A stretch of 64,000 bases of DNA, taken from contig DASRBN010000007.1 of assembly GCA_035653615.1 (NCBI GenBank), positions 62,001-126,000 on the forward strand, read 5' to 3'. Origin of the DNA: Ktedonobacteraceae bacterium (GTDB taxonomy: Bacteria > Chloroflexota > Ktedonobacteria > Ktedonobacterales > Ktedonobacteraceae). The translations under genes were made by a program, and so were the position numbers. Under the pieces are notes generated by a model. It searched no databases, was not told the DNA's origin, and was given only the letters and a program-made list of their open reading frames with translations. Of the stretch, positions 7,846-17,709 are shown in pieces. Numbering within the stretch: position 1 is the stretch's first letter; each line of letters begins with the position of its first letter.

Positions 7846-8352
7846 CTAGTCACCAGTTCCAACAGGCTCGGCAGCGCCGGTACGCATCTGCTCGGCAGCG
7901 TACTGGACTGCGCGCACAATGTTTTGATAGCCGGTGCAGCGGCAGATATTGCCCTCAAGCCCCTTGCGGATCTCTTCTTCTGTCGGATTGGGGTTATCCT
8001 TGAGCAATTGATACGAGGCCATAATCATGCCGGGCGTGCAAAAGCCACACTGCAGACCGTGCTTCTCCCAGAAACCTTCCTGGATGGGGTGCAGACTTCC
8101 CTCAGGTGCCAGTCCCTCGATGGTTGTCACTTCGCCACCATCGGCCTGTACTGCCAGCACCGTACAGGATTTGACGGTTTCGCCATTGAGTAGTACAGTG
8201 CAGGCTCCACATTGCGAGGTATCACAGCCAATGTGCGTTCCTGTAAGGTCCAGCACGTCTCGTAGATAATGAACGAGCAACAAACGGGGTTCAACCGATG
8301 AATGGTATTGCTTGCCATTCACCGTGACGGTGATTTCGCGCTTCATCGTCAT
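7846..8352 (-). CDS. Molybdenum hydroxylase [2Fe-2S] (small) subunit, CutS/CoxS-like
   Basis: 168 residues. The plant-ferredoxin-type cluster has Cys at 43, 48, 51 and 63 ([10 protein letters not shown]...C), and the second cluster has Cys at 102, 105, 137 and 139 (CGFC...CRC). Both are complete, so electron transfer should work. The frame is open to 8391, but ATG 8352 has AAGGAG eight bases upstream; ATG 8346 is an alternative. It is the first gene of the operon, 87 bases before the large subunit. No maturation genes of the CoxD/E/F type are visible within the window. Confidence 0.9.
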
Positions 8353-8719
8353 CGATGTTTCTCCTTGCAATACAAATAGAGGGTACAACAAACAAGGATG
8401 AATCTCGATACCTACCTCGGGTTATGCCCGATAAACGATACTCCTCCTACTAGTGAATACGCCTATCAGTTGCGAATGGTTAATATTATTCGCGCTAGTG
8501 CCTGGCGACACCCTGTCCTTCTTTTCTGGTAGGTAACACTATAGAGCGTATCATACAGGAGGTAACATGTCAATGTTGCTGGTATATGCGAAGCCGCTCT
8601 ACACAGTACCTCATCAAATTCAAGCTGCTTGATTGCCATATCTCAAATTGTGCCCCAGGAATAGATATGGTATCATATACACTAAGTATCTTACGAAGAA
8701 AGGTAGTTGAAAAATCATC
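8353..8719. other. Divergent intergenic region between hydroxylase operon and pncB
   Basis: About 370 bases that must carry the promoters of both transcription units. The only clear element is a tiny ORF with a strong Shine-Dalgarno sequence at 8567-8632 (listed separately). A short TATGGTATCATA imperfect dyad lies near 8665-8676. Confidence 0.5.
8567..8632 (+). CDS. Possible 21-residue leader peptide upstream of pncB
   Basis: ATG is preceded by AGGAGGT with a 3-base spacing, the best ribosome-binding site in the vicinity. The peptide starts MSMLLVYAKPLYTV and ends QAA before TGA. It ends 87 bases before pncB on the same strand. It is too short to judge coding bias. It may be a translated leader controlling pncB or a small membrane-associated peptide, or a chance ORF. 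Confidence 0.35.
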   Translation: MSMLLVYAKPLYTVPHQIQAA

Positions 8720-10486: not shown

Positions 10487-11398
10487 ATGGTTACGAACTG
10501 GGGCACATCCATTTTCAATGCCCTCAGCAACGCGGTGAATCTCATTCTGACGTTCATCCCGCGTATTATCGGCTTTCTGGTCATTTTGATCATTGGCTGG
10601 ATCATTGCTACCCTTGTTGCCAAGGCGGTAACATTCCTGTTGCGCAAGGTCGGTTTTGACCGCATGGCAAACCGCATCGGTCTGAATCGCTTTGAGCAGC
10701 GCATGGGGGTTACATTGGATCCTGCCGGAGTTCTAGGCAAGGTCGTTTTCTGGTTCTTGCTCTTGATTTTCCTGGTTCCCGCAACCGATGCTCTGGGGTT
10801 GCCAACCGTCAGTAACATTCTGAATACGCTGGTGGCCTACATTCCGAACGTGTTTGTAGCTATCCTCGTACTGTTTCTGGGTACGTTGCTGGCTACCTTC
10901 GTTGCCGACCTGGTGCGTGGAGCAACTGCCTCCACAAATATCGGTAACCCATCCATTTTTGCGGGCATCGCTCGCTGGGCCATCATCGCCTTTGCCGCGC
11001 TGGTCGCGCTTGAGCAGTTAAAGATCACGCCCGACCTGATTAATGAGCTATTCGGCGCTGTTGTCTTAGCGCTGGCTATCGCTTTCGGACTGGCTTTTGG
11101 TCTTGGTGGGCAGGATGCAGCGCGTCGCTGGCTCGCTCGCGGAGAAAATACGGTAAGCAGTGCGGCCTCACAGATCAGTGCTCAACAGAGCATGAATCAG
11201 GCCAATGCTGCTCAGATGCAGGTACCTCAAGCTGCCACTTACCAGCAGCCCGTACCGGCGCAGGGTTATCAGCAGCCCTATCCGCCTCAGCAGCCTTACC
11301 CTGCACAACAACAACCTTATCCACCCCAGCAGCCTTATCCGCCACAGTATGCGGATAACACTGAACCCACGCCGCCCATGCGGCCCAATCAGCGTTAA
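10487..11398 (+). CDS. Small mechanosensitive-type channel, conserved TM-helix family
   Basis: 303 residues. The first 200 residues form about five membrane helices with the duplicated conserved TM-helix pattern (FIPRIIGFLVILIIGWIIA and YIPNVFVAILVLFLGTLLA) found in small MscS-related or CmpX-like proteins. The last helix ends AIAFGLAFGLGGQDAARRW, as in MscS pore helices. The MscS beta domain is missing; instead there is a Gln/Pro/Tyr-rich tail (about residues 235-303) with QQPYPPQQPYP repeats, likely disordered. It would act in the cytoplasmic membrane, probably as a turgor-related channel or scaffold. The start follows AGAGAGGAG. A terminator follows the gene. Confidence 0.75.
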   Translation: MVTNWGTSIFNALSNAVNLILTFIPRIIGFLVILIIGWIIATLVAKAVTFLLRKVGFDRMANRIGLNRFEQRMGVTLDPAGVLGKVVFWFLLLIFLVPATDALGLPTVSNILNTLVAYIPNVFVAILVLFLGTLLATFVADLVRGATASTNIGNPSIFAGIARWAIIAFAALVALEQLKITPDLINELFGAVVLALAIAFGLAFGLGGQDAARRWLARGENTVSSAASQISAQQSMNQANAAQMQVPQAATYQQPVPAQGYQQPYPPQQPYPAQQQPYPPQQPYPPQYADNTEPTPPMRPNQR

Positions 11399-11450
11399 CG
11401 TGCTGCTAAATGTCCGATAAGCGTAGGAAGTTGTAGTTCAACACAAAAAG

Positions 11451-11494
11451 AAATGCGACGGAGTGCAATCAATGCTACTCCGCCGCATTTTTTA
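11451..11494 (+). terminator. Rho-independent terminator of the channel gene
   Basis: The stem AAATGCG-A-CGGAGT / ACTCCG-C-CGCATTT has one mismatch and a 12-base loop, with TTTTTT at its end. It also lies just before the convergent zinc-ribbon gene and could act on both. Confidence 0.8.
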
Positions 11495-11537
11495 TATTAA
11501 CAGCAGACTTCCGATGAGCAGTCAGGAAAGATCCTCA

Positions 11538-12365
11538 CTACACCTTCGGCCTGCCGCAGTTGGGGCAAAAGTTCCCCGCGTTGCGATCAGAAGTAAATCC
11601 ACACGCGCACAGGTAAGGCTGGTTAACTGCCGCCCGTACAGTCTGTTCTGCCGGAATTTGCGCCGCGCTGGGACCTGGAGTTCGTAGTGTCTGCTGGGCA
11701 TCAAGCGGGATGGGACCTGGGCTTACAAATTGCGCCGCCTGCGGGCCTGCGAATTGAGCCGGATTGGGACCCGCGAACTGAACAGGTTGCTGAACCGCAA
11801 ATTGAGCCGGATTCGGGCCCGCAAACTGCGGCTGCGCACCAGCGAAAGCAGGCGCAACTCGCGGTGGCTCCAGTGGATTGGCGACACCAACTTGCTGCTG
11901 GGCAGGATATGGTACAGCCGGGGCCGGACTTACTCTCGTGGCACGACTGATCAACCATTGCCCACCCTGATAGCGCCAATTTAGGAAGAACAGGCGGAGC
12001 GGCCCCTGTAACAGCAAAAAGATGCTCAGCCAGATCAGCCCATACTGGATCAAGAAGACAGGAAATGGCGGGGGCGTTTTAATACCTGGCAGATGTACTG
12101 TAATGATCAGTACCCAGATCAAAGCGCCTTCCACTATACCTGCTGCTACCTGGAAGCTCGTCGGCCAATCGCGGTCCCAACGAAACGTCGTGATAAACTG
12201 GTACAGTATATCCCAGACCAATCCAAAGACCAGCACGTACAGCAGCGCCCATAATGGCGTGAGGTAGTTATGAATGACCAGCCCCACCAGCAACGTGATG
12301 ATAAGTCCGGCAGTCGGCAGTAAAAAGAGCCGAATCTGCCAGCGACCGAATAATGTTGGTGTCAT
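11538..12365 (-). CDS. Membrane protein with disordered repeats and C-terminal zinc ribbon
   Basis: 275 residues in three parts. Residues 10-135 form four membrane helices. Residues 140-245 are Pro/Ala/Gln-rich with repeats of FAGPNPAQ. The last 25 residues contain CACGFTSDRNAGNFCPNCG, a zinc ribbon with two CxC/CxxC knuckles. The function is unknown; the layout suggests a membrane anchor that holds a cytoplasmic zinc-ribbon module. The ATG overlaps the stop of the upstream FHA-oxidoreductase gene (ATGA, four bases), so the two are translated together and probably work together. Confidence 0.7.
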   Translation of the reverse strand: MTPTLFGRWQIRLFLLPTAGLIITLLVGLVIHNYLTPLWALLYVLVFGLVWDILYQFITTFRWDRDWPTSFQVAAGIVEGALIWVLIITVHLPGIKTPPPFPVFLIQYGLIWLSIFLLLQGPLRLFFLNWRYQGGQWLISRATRVSPAPAVPYPAQQQVGVANPLEPPRVAPAFAGAQPQFAGPNPAQFAVQQPVQFAGPNPAQFAGPQAAQFVSPGPIPLDAQQTLRTPGPSAAQIPAEQTVRAAVNQPYLCACGFTSDRNAGNFCPNCGRPKV

Positions 12366-14482
12366 ACGCGTACTCCTTGTCCTTGTGCTTGTCCTTGAAA
12401 TCCGCCTGCATATGCTGTACCGGTCGGAGCTGACGAACTCCTGTTCGGCTCAGCGCCACGCACCCAACGCATCCATTGAGAGAATGAACGCAGTGGAGTG
12501 AGCTTGCGCAATCCCGGCGCGCGCAATCTAACCAGGTCTTCTACAGCACGAAGACCCGCGTATTGCAATCCTAGAAAACTGTCGACAACCGCGTGAGGCC
12601 CACCAAGTGTCATCGCTCCGCAGGCATAGACTCTTCCCGGCCCATTACTCATACCCTCCACCTCAAAATCATTCGTCACCCGTAACCGGCCCTTGGGATT
12701 TAATCCCAAACTGTACGTGTTTACCATATCATTTAACATAGGGTTCTTATCGATGGCCGCTGTCAACCCTGTACAGTCAATGATATAGTCTGTAATCAGC
12801 GCTATCTCGGGCTGGTTCGGCTTGCCCGTTGAAAGCTGCGTCACGACCTGCCCCTTGCCGCTACGCTCAAGGCGCTTAACCTCTCCGAAGTAGATCTGAT
12901 ACCAGCCTTCTCGCAGCCCCCGATTCGCAATCTTCTGCCAGTCTGTACGGTCCGCCGTGGTCGTTCCTCCCCAATCGTTTAGCAACCGGTCGCGCTCCGC
13001 ATCATCCGCCCTCTCAAGCCGGATGCGCATCGATCCTGTCCAGCAACCCTTGGGCCAGTTGAACGGCTGCAGCTCGACATGGTTGATCACTCGCCTGACA
13101 GCGCGCCCGTCTCGATGACCCTTCGGCACCGGGTTGCGGTGAACGTGGATAATAACGATATTCTTATTCTGCTGGCGCACCTCGTATAGTCGCTGGATCA
13201 CCCGTGAAGCCACAATTCCTCGCCCGCGAATCATCACTACTCCCCCATTCTTTTTCAGATCCTCATACACGTGATTGTGCTCTTCATAGGCGTTGACCGT
13301 GTGCTTGTAGTCCCTGGTTCGCTCGCGGTACTCATTGATATCATCCAGAATCTTTATTCCAGGGTAGCCCATCGCCAGCTGGACATAGCGCCCTACCGCC
13401 AGGTGATGAACCATTTGCCCTCGCTGGTCAGGCGCCATATAGGCCACCACATACCGGCCATCATCTGTTTTACGTATCGCCTGCGCCCGGCCATAGCGCC
13501 AGATGCGTCCCCAGCCGATGCGCTGAGCCTCTTTATCCACAGATCTGAAAACATCTCCTGAACGCGGCGTGTAGGTATACGTCAGCGAAGGCTCACCAAA
13601 AACATGCTTTGCGACCCACCACGCGTTCCCCAACTCACCCTTACCAAGGGAACGAAAGATTTCACGCAGACCGTAGGATGGCCAGCCCCAGATATTGTCC
13701 GGGCACGACTCGCTGTTGGAACGTAATCGCTCGTGGAGCGGTATCTGCGAGTTGCCACATAGGCGCGAGTAGCGACCCATGGGCCTCGGCTCCAGACCTA
13801 TCGCGGCAATCTGGTCGGCAGGTACCCCGAAGATGCGCAGGTGATCAACCCAGGCGAAGCTGCCTATTCCGCCACCAACAGCGAGGTACGTCGTCTCTAT
13901 GACAGGCAATCCGCTGCGGTATATCTCATTCATTGGGATAATGGGCTGGCGCATGCCACCCAGGGGTAAGGATTCCTCTACAGGCTCCTTCGTCGCTTCT
14001 GGCAGCAGTTTGTCGTCATGGCTGAACACAAGAGCGGACTCGCCAACCGGCAATCCGGCAAACCGGCCCAGGAAACTTTGCGAAAAAAGGGCCGACTTCT
14101 CAAGACCCTTACGTGTCGTCGACAACTGCGCTGCCTGCACAGCTGCCGCGGGCACTTCCCTCACCGTAAAATGGAAAGGGCCGATCTGGAAGCTACTACC
14201 GCTGGCCAGTTGTACTTCAGTAATACGCTCGTCGTTGACGAATGTGCCGTTGGTACTCTGAAGATCTTGAAGGATCAGTCTCCCACCATCAGCTCGTAAT
14301 GTCGCGTGCCGGCGCGATACCCTGTTGCTGCTGAGAACAACTGTATTCTCATCAGTTCGTCCAAATGTAACCGGTAGTGGTCCCACGAATTCTCGGCCTT
14401 CACCGGTTGCTACATCACTCCAGGTCAACTGTACATTAAGCGTTTGTGAATCTGCTGGCATAGGCAAAGCCTCCATTACCAA
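12362..14482 (-). CDS. FHA domain fused to an FAD/NAD(P)-binding oxidoreductase-like protein
   Basis: 706 residues. Residues about 25-110 form an FHA phosphothreonine-binding domain with the conserved VTFGRTDENTVVLSSNRVSRRHA and LQDLQSTNGTFVND signatures (each cited within 20-residue pieces of a longer motif). A linker leads to a Rossmann-type flavoprotein region with AVGGGIGSFAWVDHL (near residue 205), an internal second nucleotide-binding-like stretch (VVMIRGRGIVASRVI) and the C-terminal FAD-type motif GRVYACGAMTLGGPH. It would be a redox enzyme recruited by, or controlled through, Ser/Thr phosphorylation; a membrane kinase is encoded 1.6 kb away. The substrate is unknown. It is translationally coupled to the downstream zinc-ribbon membrane gene. 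Confidence 0.75.
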   Translation of the reverse strand: MVMEALPMPADSQTLNVQLTWSDVATGEGREFVGPLPVTFGRTDENTVVLSSNRVSRRHATLRADGGRLILQDLQSTNGTFVNDERITEVQLASGSSFQIGPFHFTVREVPAAAVQAAQLSTTRKGLEKSALFSQSFLGRFAGLPVGESALVFSHDDKLLPEATKEPVEESLPLGGMRQPIIPMNEIYRSGLPVIETTYLAVGGGIGSFAWVDHLRIFGVPADQIAAIGLEPRPMGRYSRLCGNSQIPLHERLRSNSESCPDNIWGWPSYGLREIFRSLGKGELGNAWWVAKHVFGEPSLTYTYTPRSGDVFRSVDKEAQRIGWGRIWRYGRAQAIRKTDDGRYVVAYMAPDQRGQMVHHLAVGRYVQLAMGYPGIKILDDINEYRERTRDYKHTVNAYEEHNHVYEDLKKNGGVVMIRGRGIVASRVIQRLYEVRQQNKNIVIIHVHRNPVPKGHRDGRAVRRVINHVELQPFNWPKGCWTGSMRIRLERADDAERDRLLNDWGGTTTADRTDWQKIANRGLREGWYQIYFGEVKRLERSGKGQVVTQLSTGKPNQPEIALITDYIIDCTGLTAAIDKNPMLNDMVNTYSLGLNPKGRLRVTNDFEVEGMSNGPGRVYACGAMTLGGPHAVVDSFLGLQYAGLRAVEDLVRLRAPGLRKLTPLRSFSQWMRWVRGAEPNRSSSAPTGTAYAGGFQGQAQGQGVRV

Positions 14483-14997
14483 TATAACCGGCTGTTAGCA
14501 GCTGGTAACAAAAACGATTGTACCGGGACAGTCAATATTCCCAAATTCAGCCCTTGCCACCTGGTTTTTCCCTGCATTGCATCTGAACGGTGCAACTCGG
14601 TTCACGGAAAAAGTATAAACTTCTGCCCTATAAAAAGCAAGAGCTTCAATCCACAAAAAATATATGTTAAAGATCACTCTGGTTTTTGCAATAATGAATC
14701 GGCAATCATCTTAAAACGTGAAGTAACGCTCATATTTTTATCAGGAATACTAATCTATCGGGATATGAATTCCATGTAACTACTCCAGCCTTGCAAACTC
14801 CTCCCAGGTCACAGCAGCCATAACTGAATGGTAAACGTCCAGAGCCAACTTTTTTTGCATGTAAGCTGCATAATATTACCGATACTGATCCCTCGTTGTA
14901 CTTGCCGGCAATTTCAGCGAAAATATCGCCGGCGACATTGCCCGCGAAGCAGCAAAGGTGTATCATTAACAGCGTTGCAGGGGGTATCAAAACACCT
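14483..14997. other. Intergenic region, divergent
   Basis: About 500 AT-rich bases between the FHA gene and a membrane protein gene. Weak reading frames exist on both strands but none has a ribosome-binding site or a recognisable product. The promoter of the FHA gene should lie at the left end. I see no hairpin or repeat worth naming. Confidence 0.45.
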
Positions 14998-15933
14998 ATG
15001 GCTGAACGTCTAACTGAATCAGGTACAGAACATACCGGGGAACCAGAAACAACAACACGAGAGAGTATTGTGGTGAATGAAAACATGCCAGCGGCAGATG
15101 GACTTTCTATGACCGGAACAGACAGTGTCTGGACGCCTTTCTTCATGGTCACATTTGCTTCACTACTGGTACTGGGATTGAGTGGGGATGCGCTGCTTGC
15201 CGAGGGATGGCTCGCTCATTTCTATACGGGACAATGGATTATGCAGGCGCATGTCGCTATTGCCGGCATACTCTGGCTGCTGTTGGCGATATTTGCTCGC
15301 TCGCAATGGGCGCGTATCGGGGCTATTTTCGGATGTATCTGGGCAATCTTCATGAACCTCGATATCATCATTATCTCAACTTCTGGCAATATCGGTTCGC
15401 CGCTTATTCCTCCTGTCAACGCGGCTCTCTGCATTGCTCTGCTTGGCGCCTACACCTGCCTTTCCATGGAGCAAATCCCATTCCGGCGCTGGGATGCCCT
15501 GTTCTTTGGACTTGCCCCCATTGGGGGAATTCTGGCCGTTGTACTGGCTTATTTTCTTACCCCTGCCGGTACATGGTCATTGGGCATGTTCGAGGGGTAC
15601 GTTGCGGCAACCGCCCTGGTTCTTGCCACACTCGTATGGTGGCTGCGCCCTTCATGCTGGACAGCACAGCCAGGACCTACATTCTTGTTCGGGGTCGCGC
15701 CTCTTATCCTCTTGCTCCTTGCAATTCCCAGCGAGGGATTTAACGAATCAAACTTTTTTCTTGCTCAGGTTGTACTGATCCCTTTGTCTTCCCAAACCAT
15801 TACAGAAGCTAATTTCTTTTTCTCTGAAGTCGTCCTTTTATGCCTGATCCTGGGAACTTTACGCATGTTGAAAGGTCAGTTTATCCGCTCCGACATCCCG
15901 AGCCTGGATAGACATTCTCCAACAGTAAGATAG
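14998..15933 (+). CDS. Multi-pass membrane protein of unknown function
   Basis: 311 residues from the chosen ATG. A polar N-terminus of about 40 residues precedes eight or nine membrane helices (for example FFMVTFASLLVLGLSGDALL and GILWLLLAIFARSQWARI). I do not recognise the family, and there is no conserved charged residue in the helices suggesting transport. The frame is open to 14896; the ATG at 14998 has AGGGGG about 13 bases upstream, and ATG 15085, preceded by GGTGA, is a good alternative. It is transcribed alone towards the kinase gene. Confidence 0.6.
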   Translation: MAERLTESGTEHTGEPETTTRESIVVNENMPAADGLSMTGTDSVWTPFFMVTFASLLVLGLSGDALLAEGWLAHFYTGQWIMQAHVAIAGILWLLLAIFARSQWARIGAIFGCIWAIFMNLDIIIISTSGNIGSPLIPPVNAALCIALLGAYTCLSMEQIPFRRWDALFFGLAPIGGILAVVLAYFLTPAGTWSLGMFEGYVAATALVLATLVWWLRPSCWTAQPGPTFLFGVAPLILLLLAIPSEGFNESNFFLAQVVLIPLSSQTITEANFFFSEVVLLCLILGTLRMLKGQFIRSDIPSLDRHSPTVR

Positions 15934-16074
15934 TTCCTCGCAAAACTGTGAACTAAACGATAGACCGGCTCACATAGATAAACTATACTGTATCTATCAG
16001 TTTATTCTCTAGTAAATTAATCTTGCGAGTATCCGAAAAGGCTACGAAAACGCAGTGTTAAAGTGAGGTCCGGC

Positions 16075-17709
16075 ATGTCGATCTTTGAAAATCAGACCGG
16101 AAGAATACCCCGGCAATCCATCTTGCACCAGCGCTATGCCATCGTTGGTCCGCTTGGCCGCGGCGGAATGAGCGCGGTATACCAGGCAGTAGATACTCAA
16201 GAGGCTAACCGGCGCGTCGCCATTAAGGAGATGAGCCAGGGCCATCTCAGCGGCCCTGATCTCGATGAAGCCATCAGGCGGTTTCAACAGGAAGCCACCC
16301 TGCTACATTCGCTTCGACATCCTAATCTACCTCGCATCTTTGATATATTCGAAGAGCAGGGACGTTCTTACCTCGTCATGGAATTCATTGAGGGCAAAAA
16401 CCTGTTCCAATTGCTGCAGGAAAACAAAATGCGCCCGCTTCCCGTGGCGCAGGTCGTGGATTATGCCCTTCAATTATGCGATGTGCTTATTTACCTGCAT
16501 GGACTGCAACCGCCAATCATCTTTCGCGATCTTAAGCCAACCAATGTGATGGTTACCGGGGATGGTCATATTTATTTGATCGACTTCGGCATTGCGCGCT
16601 TCTTTAAGGAAGGCCAACAGCAGGACACTATTCTTCTAGGTTCACCAGGATATGCGCCCCCCGAACAGCATGGCAGCGGACAAACGAATCCCCGTTCTGA
16701 TCTCTACTCATTAGGTGCTACACTCCACTGCTGCCTGACGGGAAAAGACCCCTATCTCTCAACAGAACGCTTCATCTTTACCCCGGTGCGCCAGGTTAAC
16801 CCGCAGGTCCCGCTTGAACTCGATCAGCTCATCCAGCGTTTAGTGATAGTAGATGAACGCTATCGTCCGGCCAGCGCTCTAGAAGTCCAGCAATGGCTGC
16901 GCCAGATCAGGCAACAGGCAGCAGGTGATACTGTGCAAGTGAGTCCTCGTCCTGCCGCTCCCGCGTATGCTCCAACCCAAAATGTCCCGCCGAACGCTCT
17001 ATCTCCCGCATCCCCTCACAATACTTACCAGGCGCCGCAACTACCTCCAACAGTGGCAGTAAGAACCGCGGCACCGTCTCCCCAACTTCCTCAAAGATCA
17101 GCTCGCGGTCATCCGCAAGCGTCAGCTGCCGGCTTTCGTCGTAAGGCAACATGGACAGCTCCTTTCACCACCCTATTCCTTGGCATGCTTATCCTTACCG
17201 CAGGTGGCACCCTCTATGCGCTCAACTTCATCGTGAACTCGGATCATATGGTTGAATTCGGGTTATCTGCTCTCCTGCTTCTGGTTGCGATTGGAGCTAC
17301 CCTGTTCGTTCACAAATTCGTTCCCCTATTAATCCTTATGGTCATCGCGCTTGGCAGCATGGCATCTGGCATAGCTTTTCTCATGCAGGCAACACCCGGT
17401 ATCCAGCTCATCGAGAACCTGGTACATGTCAGCGACAACAACCTGTTTACGGCAGGATTAGGAATTGCTGCGCTTGTCTTACTCTGCTGGCTATTTCGCT
17501 CAATCTCCTGGCCGGGCCGTCTCCTGCTCTTTGTGGTATCTGGCGCTGCCACTATCTGCCTGTTTATTCAGTATCCTCTTAGCGATGCGAACTCTCTCGG
17601 AGGAAACGAGGGGGATATCAAGCACACATTATTGCTCACAGCCATCATTCTACTTATCCAGAGTACGTTGCTGGCGGTACAGGCAGAAAGGGCTAGATCT
17701 CATTCATAA
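16075..17709 (+). CDS. Membrane Ser/Thr protein kinase
   Basis: 544 residues. The kinase domain (about 20-285) has a Gly-rich loop GPLGRGGMSAVY, catalytic Lys51, Glu73, the catalytic loop FRDLKPTNVM (Asp152), IDFG (Asp170) and the activation segment SPGYAPPEQ. The usual His of HRD is Phe150, a substitution seen in some bacterial kinases. A Pro/Ala-rich linker (about 290-355) leads to six hydrophobic helices, so the kinase faces the cytoplasm. It could phosphorylate FHA partners such as the nearby FHA-oxidoreductase. ATG 16075 has GAGG at good spacing; the GTG four codons upstream lacks one. It converges on the PQQ-propeller lipoprotein gene with nine bases between. Confidence 0.88.
   Translation: MSIFENQTGRIPRQSILHQRYAIVGPLGRGGMSAVYQAVDTQEANRRVAIKEMSQGHLSGPDLDEAIRRFQQEATLLHSLRHPNLPRIFDIFEEQGRSYLVMEFIEGKNLFQLLQENKMRPLPVAQVVDYALQLCDVLIYLHGLQPPIIFRDLKPTNVMVTGDGHIYLIDFGIARFFKEGQQQDTILLGSPGYAPPEQHGSGQTNPRSDLYSLGATLHCCLTGKDPYLSTERFIFTPVRQVNPQVPLELDQLIQRLVIVDERYRPASALEVQQWLRQIRQQAAGDTVQVSPRPAAPAYAPTQNVPPNALSPASPHNTYQAPQLPPTVAVRTAAPSPQLPQRSARGHPQASAAGFRRKATWTAPFTTLFLGMLILTAGGTLYALNFIVNSDHMVEFGLSALLLLVAIGATLFVHKFVPLLILMVIALGSMASGIAFLMQATPGIQLIENLVHVSDNNLFTAGLGIAALVLLCWLFRSISWPGRLLLFVVSGAATICLFIQYPLSDANSLGGNEGDIKHTLLLTAIILLIQSTLLAVQAERARSHS

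Follow-up and report, generated by a model that had tools for sequence, protein, structure and literature searches.

This work concerns an overlapping gene pair in a 64,000-nucleotide stretch of the genome of a Ktedonobacteraceae bacterium (Chloroflexota; GenBank assembly GCA_035653615.1, contig DASRBN010000007.1, positions 62,001 to 126,000 of the forward strand), hereafter the window. The first gene encodes a flavoprotein with an N-terminal FHA domain, and the second a membrane protein with four predicted transmembrane helices (the 4TM protein). The flavoprotein domain and the 4TM protein are a conserved redox module without a Pfam or NCBIfam family. The features of the pair, numbered from the first base of the window, are as follows.

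12362..14482, (-): FHA-flavoprotein, 706 amino acids from TTG at 14482, with an alternative ATG start at 14476; relatives share 50-60% identity
14180..14371, (-): FHA domain, residues 38-101 (PF00498, E = 4.1e-19)
12497..13909, (-): two-dinucleotide-binding flavoprotein domain, residues ~192-662, delimited by AlphaFold2 model, Foldseek and VIA-align
13859..13876, (-): first Rossmann motif GGGIGS (GxGxxS), residues 203-208, presumed FAD site from its position in the fold and its motif type
13208..13225, (-): second Rossmann motif GRGIVA (GxGxxA), residues 420-425, presumed NADP(H) site, invariant in 33/33 sequences and followed by R449
11538..12365, (-): 4TM membrane protein of 275 amino acids, ending in a zinc-ribbon-like tail
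11952..12365, (-): conserved 4TM core, residues 1-138 (MTPTLFGRWQ...RYQGGQWL), from a 23-sequence alignment with 39-64% identity to the window protein
11553..11609, (-): zinc-ribbon-like motif CAC...CPNCG, residues 253-271 of the 4TM protein, after a low-complexity linker
12362..12365, (-): ATGA stop/start overlap, in which the flavoprotein TGA overlaps the 4TM ATG
12373..12378, (-): AAGGAG, Shine-Dalgarno-like as read from the sequence, 7 nucleotides upstream of the 4TM ATG

Both open reading frames (ORFs) and their ATGA overlap are present as the first-pass annotation of the window had described them. The genome holds one full flavoprotein and one 4TM protein, and its further flavoprotein matches are to FHA domains only. 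A promoter and terminator scan of 11380-15100 gave counts close to the shuffled expectation.

Domain architecture and cofactor motifs of the flavoprotein

The joining of an FHA domain to a flavin-type oxidoreductase, proposed at first pass, is borne out by the PF00498 match (69.2 bits vs a curated cut-off of 20.7), the AlphaFold2 model, Foldseek and VIA-align. Every Pfam and NCBIfam match falls on the FHA region, leaving the remaining ~580 amino acids without any. The residues G, R, S, H and N, which we take to be the phosphothreonine-binding set, are well kept in the alignment, with G41, R42, S56, R57, H59 and G79 in 33/33 sequences and N78 in 32/33. The FHA domain is included in the match for 79 of the 80 kept relatives, the 80th (L086) being cut by a contig end, and all 37 sampled cyanobacterial copies carry it, with matches starting at model positions 2-6. 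Two FHA domains occur in L010 and L013, and L088 has a second, weaker match. The best PDB sequence match of the window FHA is GarA (E = 8.8e-10). FHA regulators of the GarA/OdhI type are small stand-alone proteins that act on enzymes in trans, whereas the window FHA sits within the enzyme chain.

The FHA domain is probably an addition to an older core. The homologue in Nonomuraea (L093) is a flavoprotein of 505 amino acids that starts beyond the FHA region and is followed by an overlapping 4TM gene. Because this homologue keeps the 4TM gene while lacking the FHA domain, the older core would be the flavoprotein plus the 4TM protein, and the FHA domain would be an added control that belongs to certain lineages and not to the enzyme as such. 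A syntenic homologue without FHA, which the first-pass annotation had named as one of two refuting results, is what Nonomuraea provides. This single FHA-free case would favor gain of the domain over its loss in Nonomuraea.

The flavoprotein domain adopts a two-Rossmann fold in the AlphaFold2 model, which was built on an alignment of 33 relatives and has a mean predicted local distance difference test score of 77.8 and a predicted template-modeling score of 0.72, with low-confidence stretches at residues 116-169, 253-265 and 682-706. Foldseek against the PDB placed the ornithine hydroxylases PvdA (E = 4.8e-18) and SidA at the top. In VIA-align, YpdA (Z 24.4; root-mean-square deviation 2.9, 312 residues aligned) and PvdA (Z 24.3; 4.1, 379 aligned) were tied, and ferredoxin-NADP reductases were also among the matches (Z 21.6). 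PvdA, SidA and DfoA share the two-Rossmann FAD/NADPH (FAD, flavin adenine dinucleotide) fold with the window enzyme at Z 22-24 over 379-393 residues, but identity is only about 11-15%, and no sequence-profile match links them. These hydroxylases are soluble single-domain enzymes without an FHA domain or a 4TM partner. The window protein likewise gave no match to PF13434 (N-hydroxylating monooxygenases) at E = 1. YpdA, a bacillithiol disulfide reductase, is alike in fold but is smaller and has no FHA domain; disulfide reductases need cysteines. A bridge to known families is offered by L012, a FAD-type protein from a distant Chloroflexota genome (hhalign probability 97.8; 24% identity over 390 columns), which itself matches Pyr_redox_3 over the cut-off. 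L012 differs from the window flavoprotein in its length of 425 amino acids and in having no FHA domain by Pfam, and its genome has no 4TM protein.

Both dinucleotide-binding motifs are strongly conserved. In the first, G203, G205 and G207 are kept in 33/33 sequences and S208 in 32/33; in the second, G420, G422 and A425 are invariant in 33/33, as is R449. Compared with the GxGxxG type, the motifs read GxGxxS/N and GxGxxA, with the first two glycines in 33/33 at both sites and the last glycine replaced at both. Absence of FAD-binding residues, which the first-pass annotation had listed as grounds for refuting its proposal, was not seen, the glycines of both motifs being invariant in 33/33. On the basis of these residues and the model, FAD and NADPH binding by the flavoprotein is likely, and R449 suggests a preference for NADPH.

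The membrane partner and its zinc-ribbon-like tail

The 4TM protein presents a conserved face that may look at the flavoprotein. An AlphaFold2 model of residues 1-139 predicts four long helices (5-31, 35-59, 69-89 and 101-126). No sequence-family match above the cut-off was obtained from Pfam, NCBIfam or PADLOC, and the best Foldseek E-value against the PDB was 0.45; no known fold was recognized, though the protein may still have one. Both termini are predicted to be cytosolic, because the number of helices is even and because of the basic residues. Mean conservation is high at the N-terminus (0.94), middle loop (0.85) and C-terminus (0.86), and low in the loops of the other side (0.34 and 0.52); the conserved face would thus be turned toward a cytosolic flavoprotein. 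Two positions within the membrane helices, D/E52 in helix 2 and E79 in helix 3, are acidic in 23/23 sequences.

The membrane protein does not always carry the zinc ribbon. The motif that the first-pass annotation had seen at its C-terminus is present in the window (CxC...CPxCG), recognized as a zinc ribbon by motif only, with a best Pfam E-value of 0.039, under the cut-off. The fusion, however, occurs in just one of the 23 aligned sequences, the extension being absent from the 22 other rows, and elsewhere a zinc ribbon is found on a separate FHA protein. This protein, with an FHA domain and a C-terminal zinc ribbon, makes up gene family 1, present in 76/82 loci. In the profile search its gene adjoins upstream in 30/36 cyanobacterial carriers, and the two other Chloroflexota relatives, G084 (L109 3515-3949) and L013, have it upstream as well. 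The window genome lacks this gene: the profile of the FHA-zinc-ribbon protein matched FHA domains there, but no match extends over the zinc-ribbon part. In the window genome, the ribbon may have moved from the FHA partner to the 4TM protein. Homology of the window ribbon with the tails of the FHA-zinc-ribbon proteins was not shown, since both are just short CxxC-type motifs.

Pairing across genomes and gene order

The flavoprotein and the 4TM protein are retained together. Profile searches for both in a sample of 594 genomes (194 cyanobacterial and 400 Chloroflexota) found them in an identical set of 38 genomes, and no genome had just one of the full-length pair. Both occur in the same 36/194 cyanobacterial genomes, about a fifth, with 37 flavoprotein copies. 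In Chloroflexota, the full flavoprotein and the 4TM protein are confined to the same 2/400 genomes (G000 and G084); G062 and G016 have a distant flavoprotein only and no 4TM protein. The domain order proposed at first pass recurs elsewhere in Chloroflexota, in G084 and in the Thermomicrobiales relative L013. The probability of identical cyanobacterial sets under random placement is 5e-40, an overstated figure because the genomes share ancestry. In five genomes (G470, G569, G527, G559 and, for its first-listed copies, G576) the two genes are unlinked, being separated by over 20 kb or placed on different contigs, so joint retention is not just a matter of linkage. G576 has two flavoproteins and two 4TM proteins, one pair adjacent and the other unlinked. 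In the flavoprotein tree its second copy (L129) sits in a different clade with good support, which suggests an old duplication or a transfer.

The overlap of the two genes is also conserved. Among the loci in which both genes could be located, a four-base NTGA overlap is found in the window, in G084, in the Thermomicrobiales metagenome-assembled genome L013, in Nonomuraea (L093, as TTGA) and in the cyanobacterium G460, that is, in three Chloroflexota, one Actinomycetota and one Cyanobacteriota; the -4 overlap outside the window corresponds to loci L010, L013, L093 and L126. Other cyanobacterial loci in the same gene order have gaps of 5 to 3330 bases, and in many Nostocales a CPBP protease gene and a GDSL esterase gene often lie between the two. 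In two loci the genes of the pair are on opposite strands, and in one (L032) the 4TM gene lies upstream. Neighborhood clustering grouped cyanobacterial gene family 5, present in 41/82 loci, which is the membrane protein of the window (BLASTP down to 1.3e-36). No 4TM gene lies within the fetched DNA at 41/85 loci, a number that includes contig ends and two distant relatives. The conserved overlap and the identical phyletic distribution back the earlier suggestion that the enzyme and the membrane protein are one functional unit.

A search through one genome for each species yielded 212 relatives. The best 80 were retained, and of these 79 have cyanobacterial titles, Nostoc and Anabaena among them, and 1 is from Thermomicrobiales. 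In the order of the window's organism, the full protein occurs in 2/47 genomes, and the other matches are to FHA domains alone. In the flavoprotein tree the three Chloroflexota rows group together (98/79, not starred) next to a clade of all cyanobacteria, and Nonomuraea sits on a very long branch. A recent transfer from cyanobacteria to the window genome is not supported, as no Chloroflexota row is nested among the cyanobacteria; the patchy presence in the order could reflect either patchy loss or an older transfer. Viral carriage was also rejected, because none of 5 pattern matches in viral contigs is a relative, as was a part in phage defense, because the flavoprotein, the 4TM protein and two FHA-zinc-ribbon proteins had no PADLOC match at E = 0.01.

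Several other genes recur around the module in the cyanobacterial loci (L013-L092), namely those for endonuclease V, an SPFH-type protein (labeled from sequence, not by family match), CPBP protease, GDSL esterase and a Na/H exchanger. The endonuclease V family is present in 69/82 loci, mostly directly upstream of the FHA-zinc-ribbon gene. In the window, an ORF at 10487-11398(+) with a mechanosensitive-channel conserved transmembrane helix (PF05552, E = 6.2e-26) and a PQQPY-rich tail converges on the 4TM gene, and the translation of 7846-8391(-), judged by eye, resembles the 2Fe-2S subunit of a xanthine-dehydrogenase-type molybdenum hydroxylase.

Proposed role and competing explanations

We propose that the products of the gene pair form the core of a flavoprotein complex that uses NADPH, docks at the membrane and assembles through phosphothreonine, a reading to which we assign a probability of roughly 0.6. 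From the computed domain content, fold, gene overlap, co-occurrence and residue conservation, we infer that the enzyme binds its cofactors, that the two proteins associate physically, how the 4TM protein lies in the membrane, that phosphorylation matters and what the chemistry may be. The soluble flavoprotein would hold FAD in its first Rossmann domain and NADPH in its second, and it would work only with the 4TM protein, which offers a conserved cytosolic surface and two intramembrane acidic residues. The FHA domain would recognize a threonine that a cellular Ser/Thr kinase has phosphorylated and dock the enzyme there, and phosphorylation would control assembly or activity of the complex. In cyanobacteria and the two other Chloroflexota, the FHA-zinc-ribbon protein may be part of the complex; here the ribbon sits on the 4TM protein. 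The chemistry is most likely hydroxylation or reduction of a membrane-associated substrate.

Several observations weigh against this proposal. The FHA-zinc-ribbon gene was not recognized by profile in six cyanobacterial carriers (G453, G466, G489, G505, G555 and G557). Judging from the FHA-less Nonomuraea copy, the core can do without phospho-control. The pair has no kinase specifically linked to it. The sequence-profile search against the PDB found no related chain for the flavoprotein domain (best E = 1.3), and without such a relative among solved structures, substrate and cofactor cannot be transferred to the flavoprotein. No cysteine is among the invariant flavoprotein columns when the Nonomuraea row is included, C242 and C260 being invariant only across the 33 FHA-bearing rows, and thus there is no conserved redox cysteine. 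Finally, the co-occurrence counts take in genomes that are not independent of one another.

Among the alternatives, the strongest casts the flavoprotein not as an oxygenase but as an electron donor, recruited to the membrane, that would reduce a carrier such as a quinone through the 4TM protein. The place of YpdA and the ferredoxin-NADP reductases among the fold matches suits this role, and the conserved intramembrane acids could serve proton or quinone chemistry. However, the alignment of 23 4TM sequences contains no invariant His or Cys, and so no haem or disulfide site, and the widest fold coverage is with the N-hydroxylating monooxygenases, although fold alone is not decisive. We regard electron donation as a minority possibility of some standing.

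A more specific version of the phospho-dependent complex would place the docking site on the 4TM protein itself. Its N-terminus reads MTPTL in 55/56 sequences, all 55 accompanied by enzymes of the FHA-bearing clade. The sole exception is the Nonomuraea protein, (L/M)IPTL, which has no threonine there and whose partner enzyme lacks FHA. PMC8786283 reports an FHA ligand of the form pTxx[I/L/V], and phosphorylated Thr2 followed by Leu5 of the 4TM protein would fit it. This is one contrast only, within an N-terminal segment that is conserved in its entirety, and in overlapping genes the stop codon fixes the first base of 4TM codon 2. Phosphorylation at Thr2, within the N-terminus of the 4TM partner itself, might then act as the switch that brings the flavoenzyme to the membrane, and the second FHA protein, whose zinc ribbon would have moved onto the 4TM protein here, would bridge or oligomerize the complex; we offer this version as tentative and rather doubtful.

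It is unlikely that the two genes merely serve a shared pathway without forming a complex, their co-occurrence stemming from a common metabolic trait. Such an origin would account for the unlinked genes in 4/36 carriers and in one of the two G576 pairs, and for the esterase and protease genes that intervene in Nostocales. Against it, the exact one-to-one presence, which includes the duplicated pair of G576, and the repeated four-base overlaps exceed ordinary pathway linkage. A catalytically lost flavoprotein, serving as a redox or NADPH sensor with the FHA domain and the 4TM protein for signaling, appears more improbable still. In the first glycine motif, S or N stands in place of G at the sixth position, and two phospho-readers with a zinc ribbon resemble a signaling assembly, but more than 80 of ~490 flavoprotein columns are invariant even with the FHA-less Nonomuraea row, which is above expectation for a degenerate enzyme.

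The membrane Ser/Thr kinase that the first-pass annotation had connected with the pair is real (16063-17709(+); PF00069, E = 7.4e-43) and lies 1.6 kb away, beyond another ORF. It carries no weight as evidence, because the 6.6-Mb genome has at least 67 kinase domains (93 candidates, 67 scored), and the probability of a kinase this near by chance is 0.08-0.11. Scored kinase matches number 9-67 per genome in 25 carrier genomes, and a kinase is found in the flanks (up to 6 kb) at 7/82 loci, which we judge, by no formal test, to be background. In G084 a kinase-WD40 gene on the same strand has its kinase domain 4.5 kb upstream, in G460 a Ser/Thr kinase directly follows the 4TM gene on the same strand (L126 4680-5999(+); PF00069, E = 8.5e-33), and G458 has a kinase-like end, judged by eye. 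Whatever these close cases and the short distance in the window lend to the idea, a dedicated control of the module by the kinase at 16063-17709 is very improbable in view of its opposite strand, the intervening ORF and the abundance of kinases. Some kinase may still have a role in the module.

PMC7880944 lists the FHA protein A1557/slr1624 as found in thylakoid and other membrane fractions; it may or may not belong to the family of the window flavoprotein. Our search of a collection of open-access papers, which does not cover all print, returned no description of an FHA-flavoprotein fusion or of the flavoprotein-4TM pair. Phosphothreonine readers in bacteria are best known for acting in trans. 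A phospho-reader built into a redox enzyme would give Ser/Thr kinases a direct handle on membrane redox chemistry, and the relatives in Nostoc and Anabaena, where genetics is possible, make the module accessible to study.

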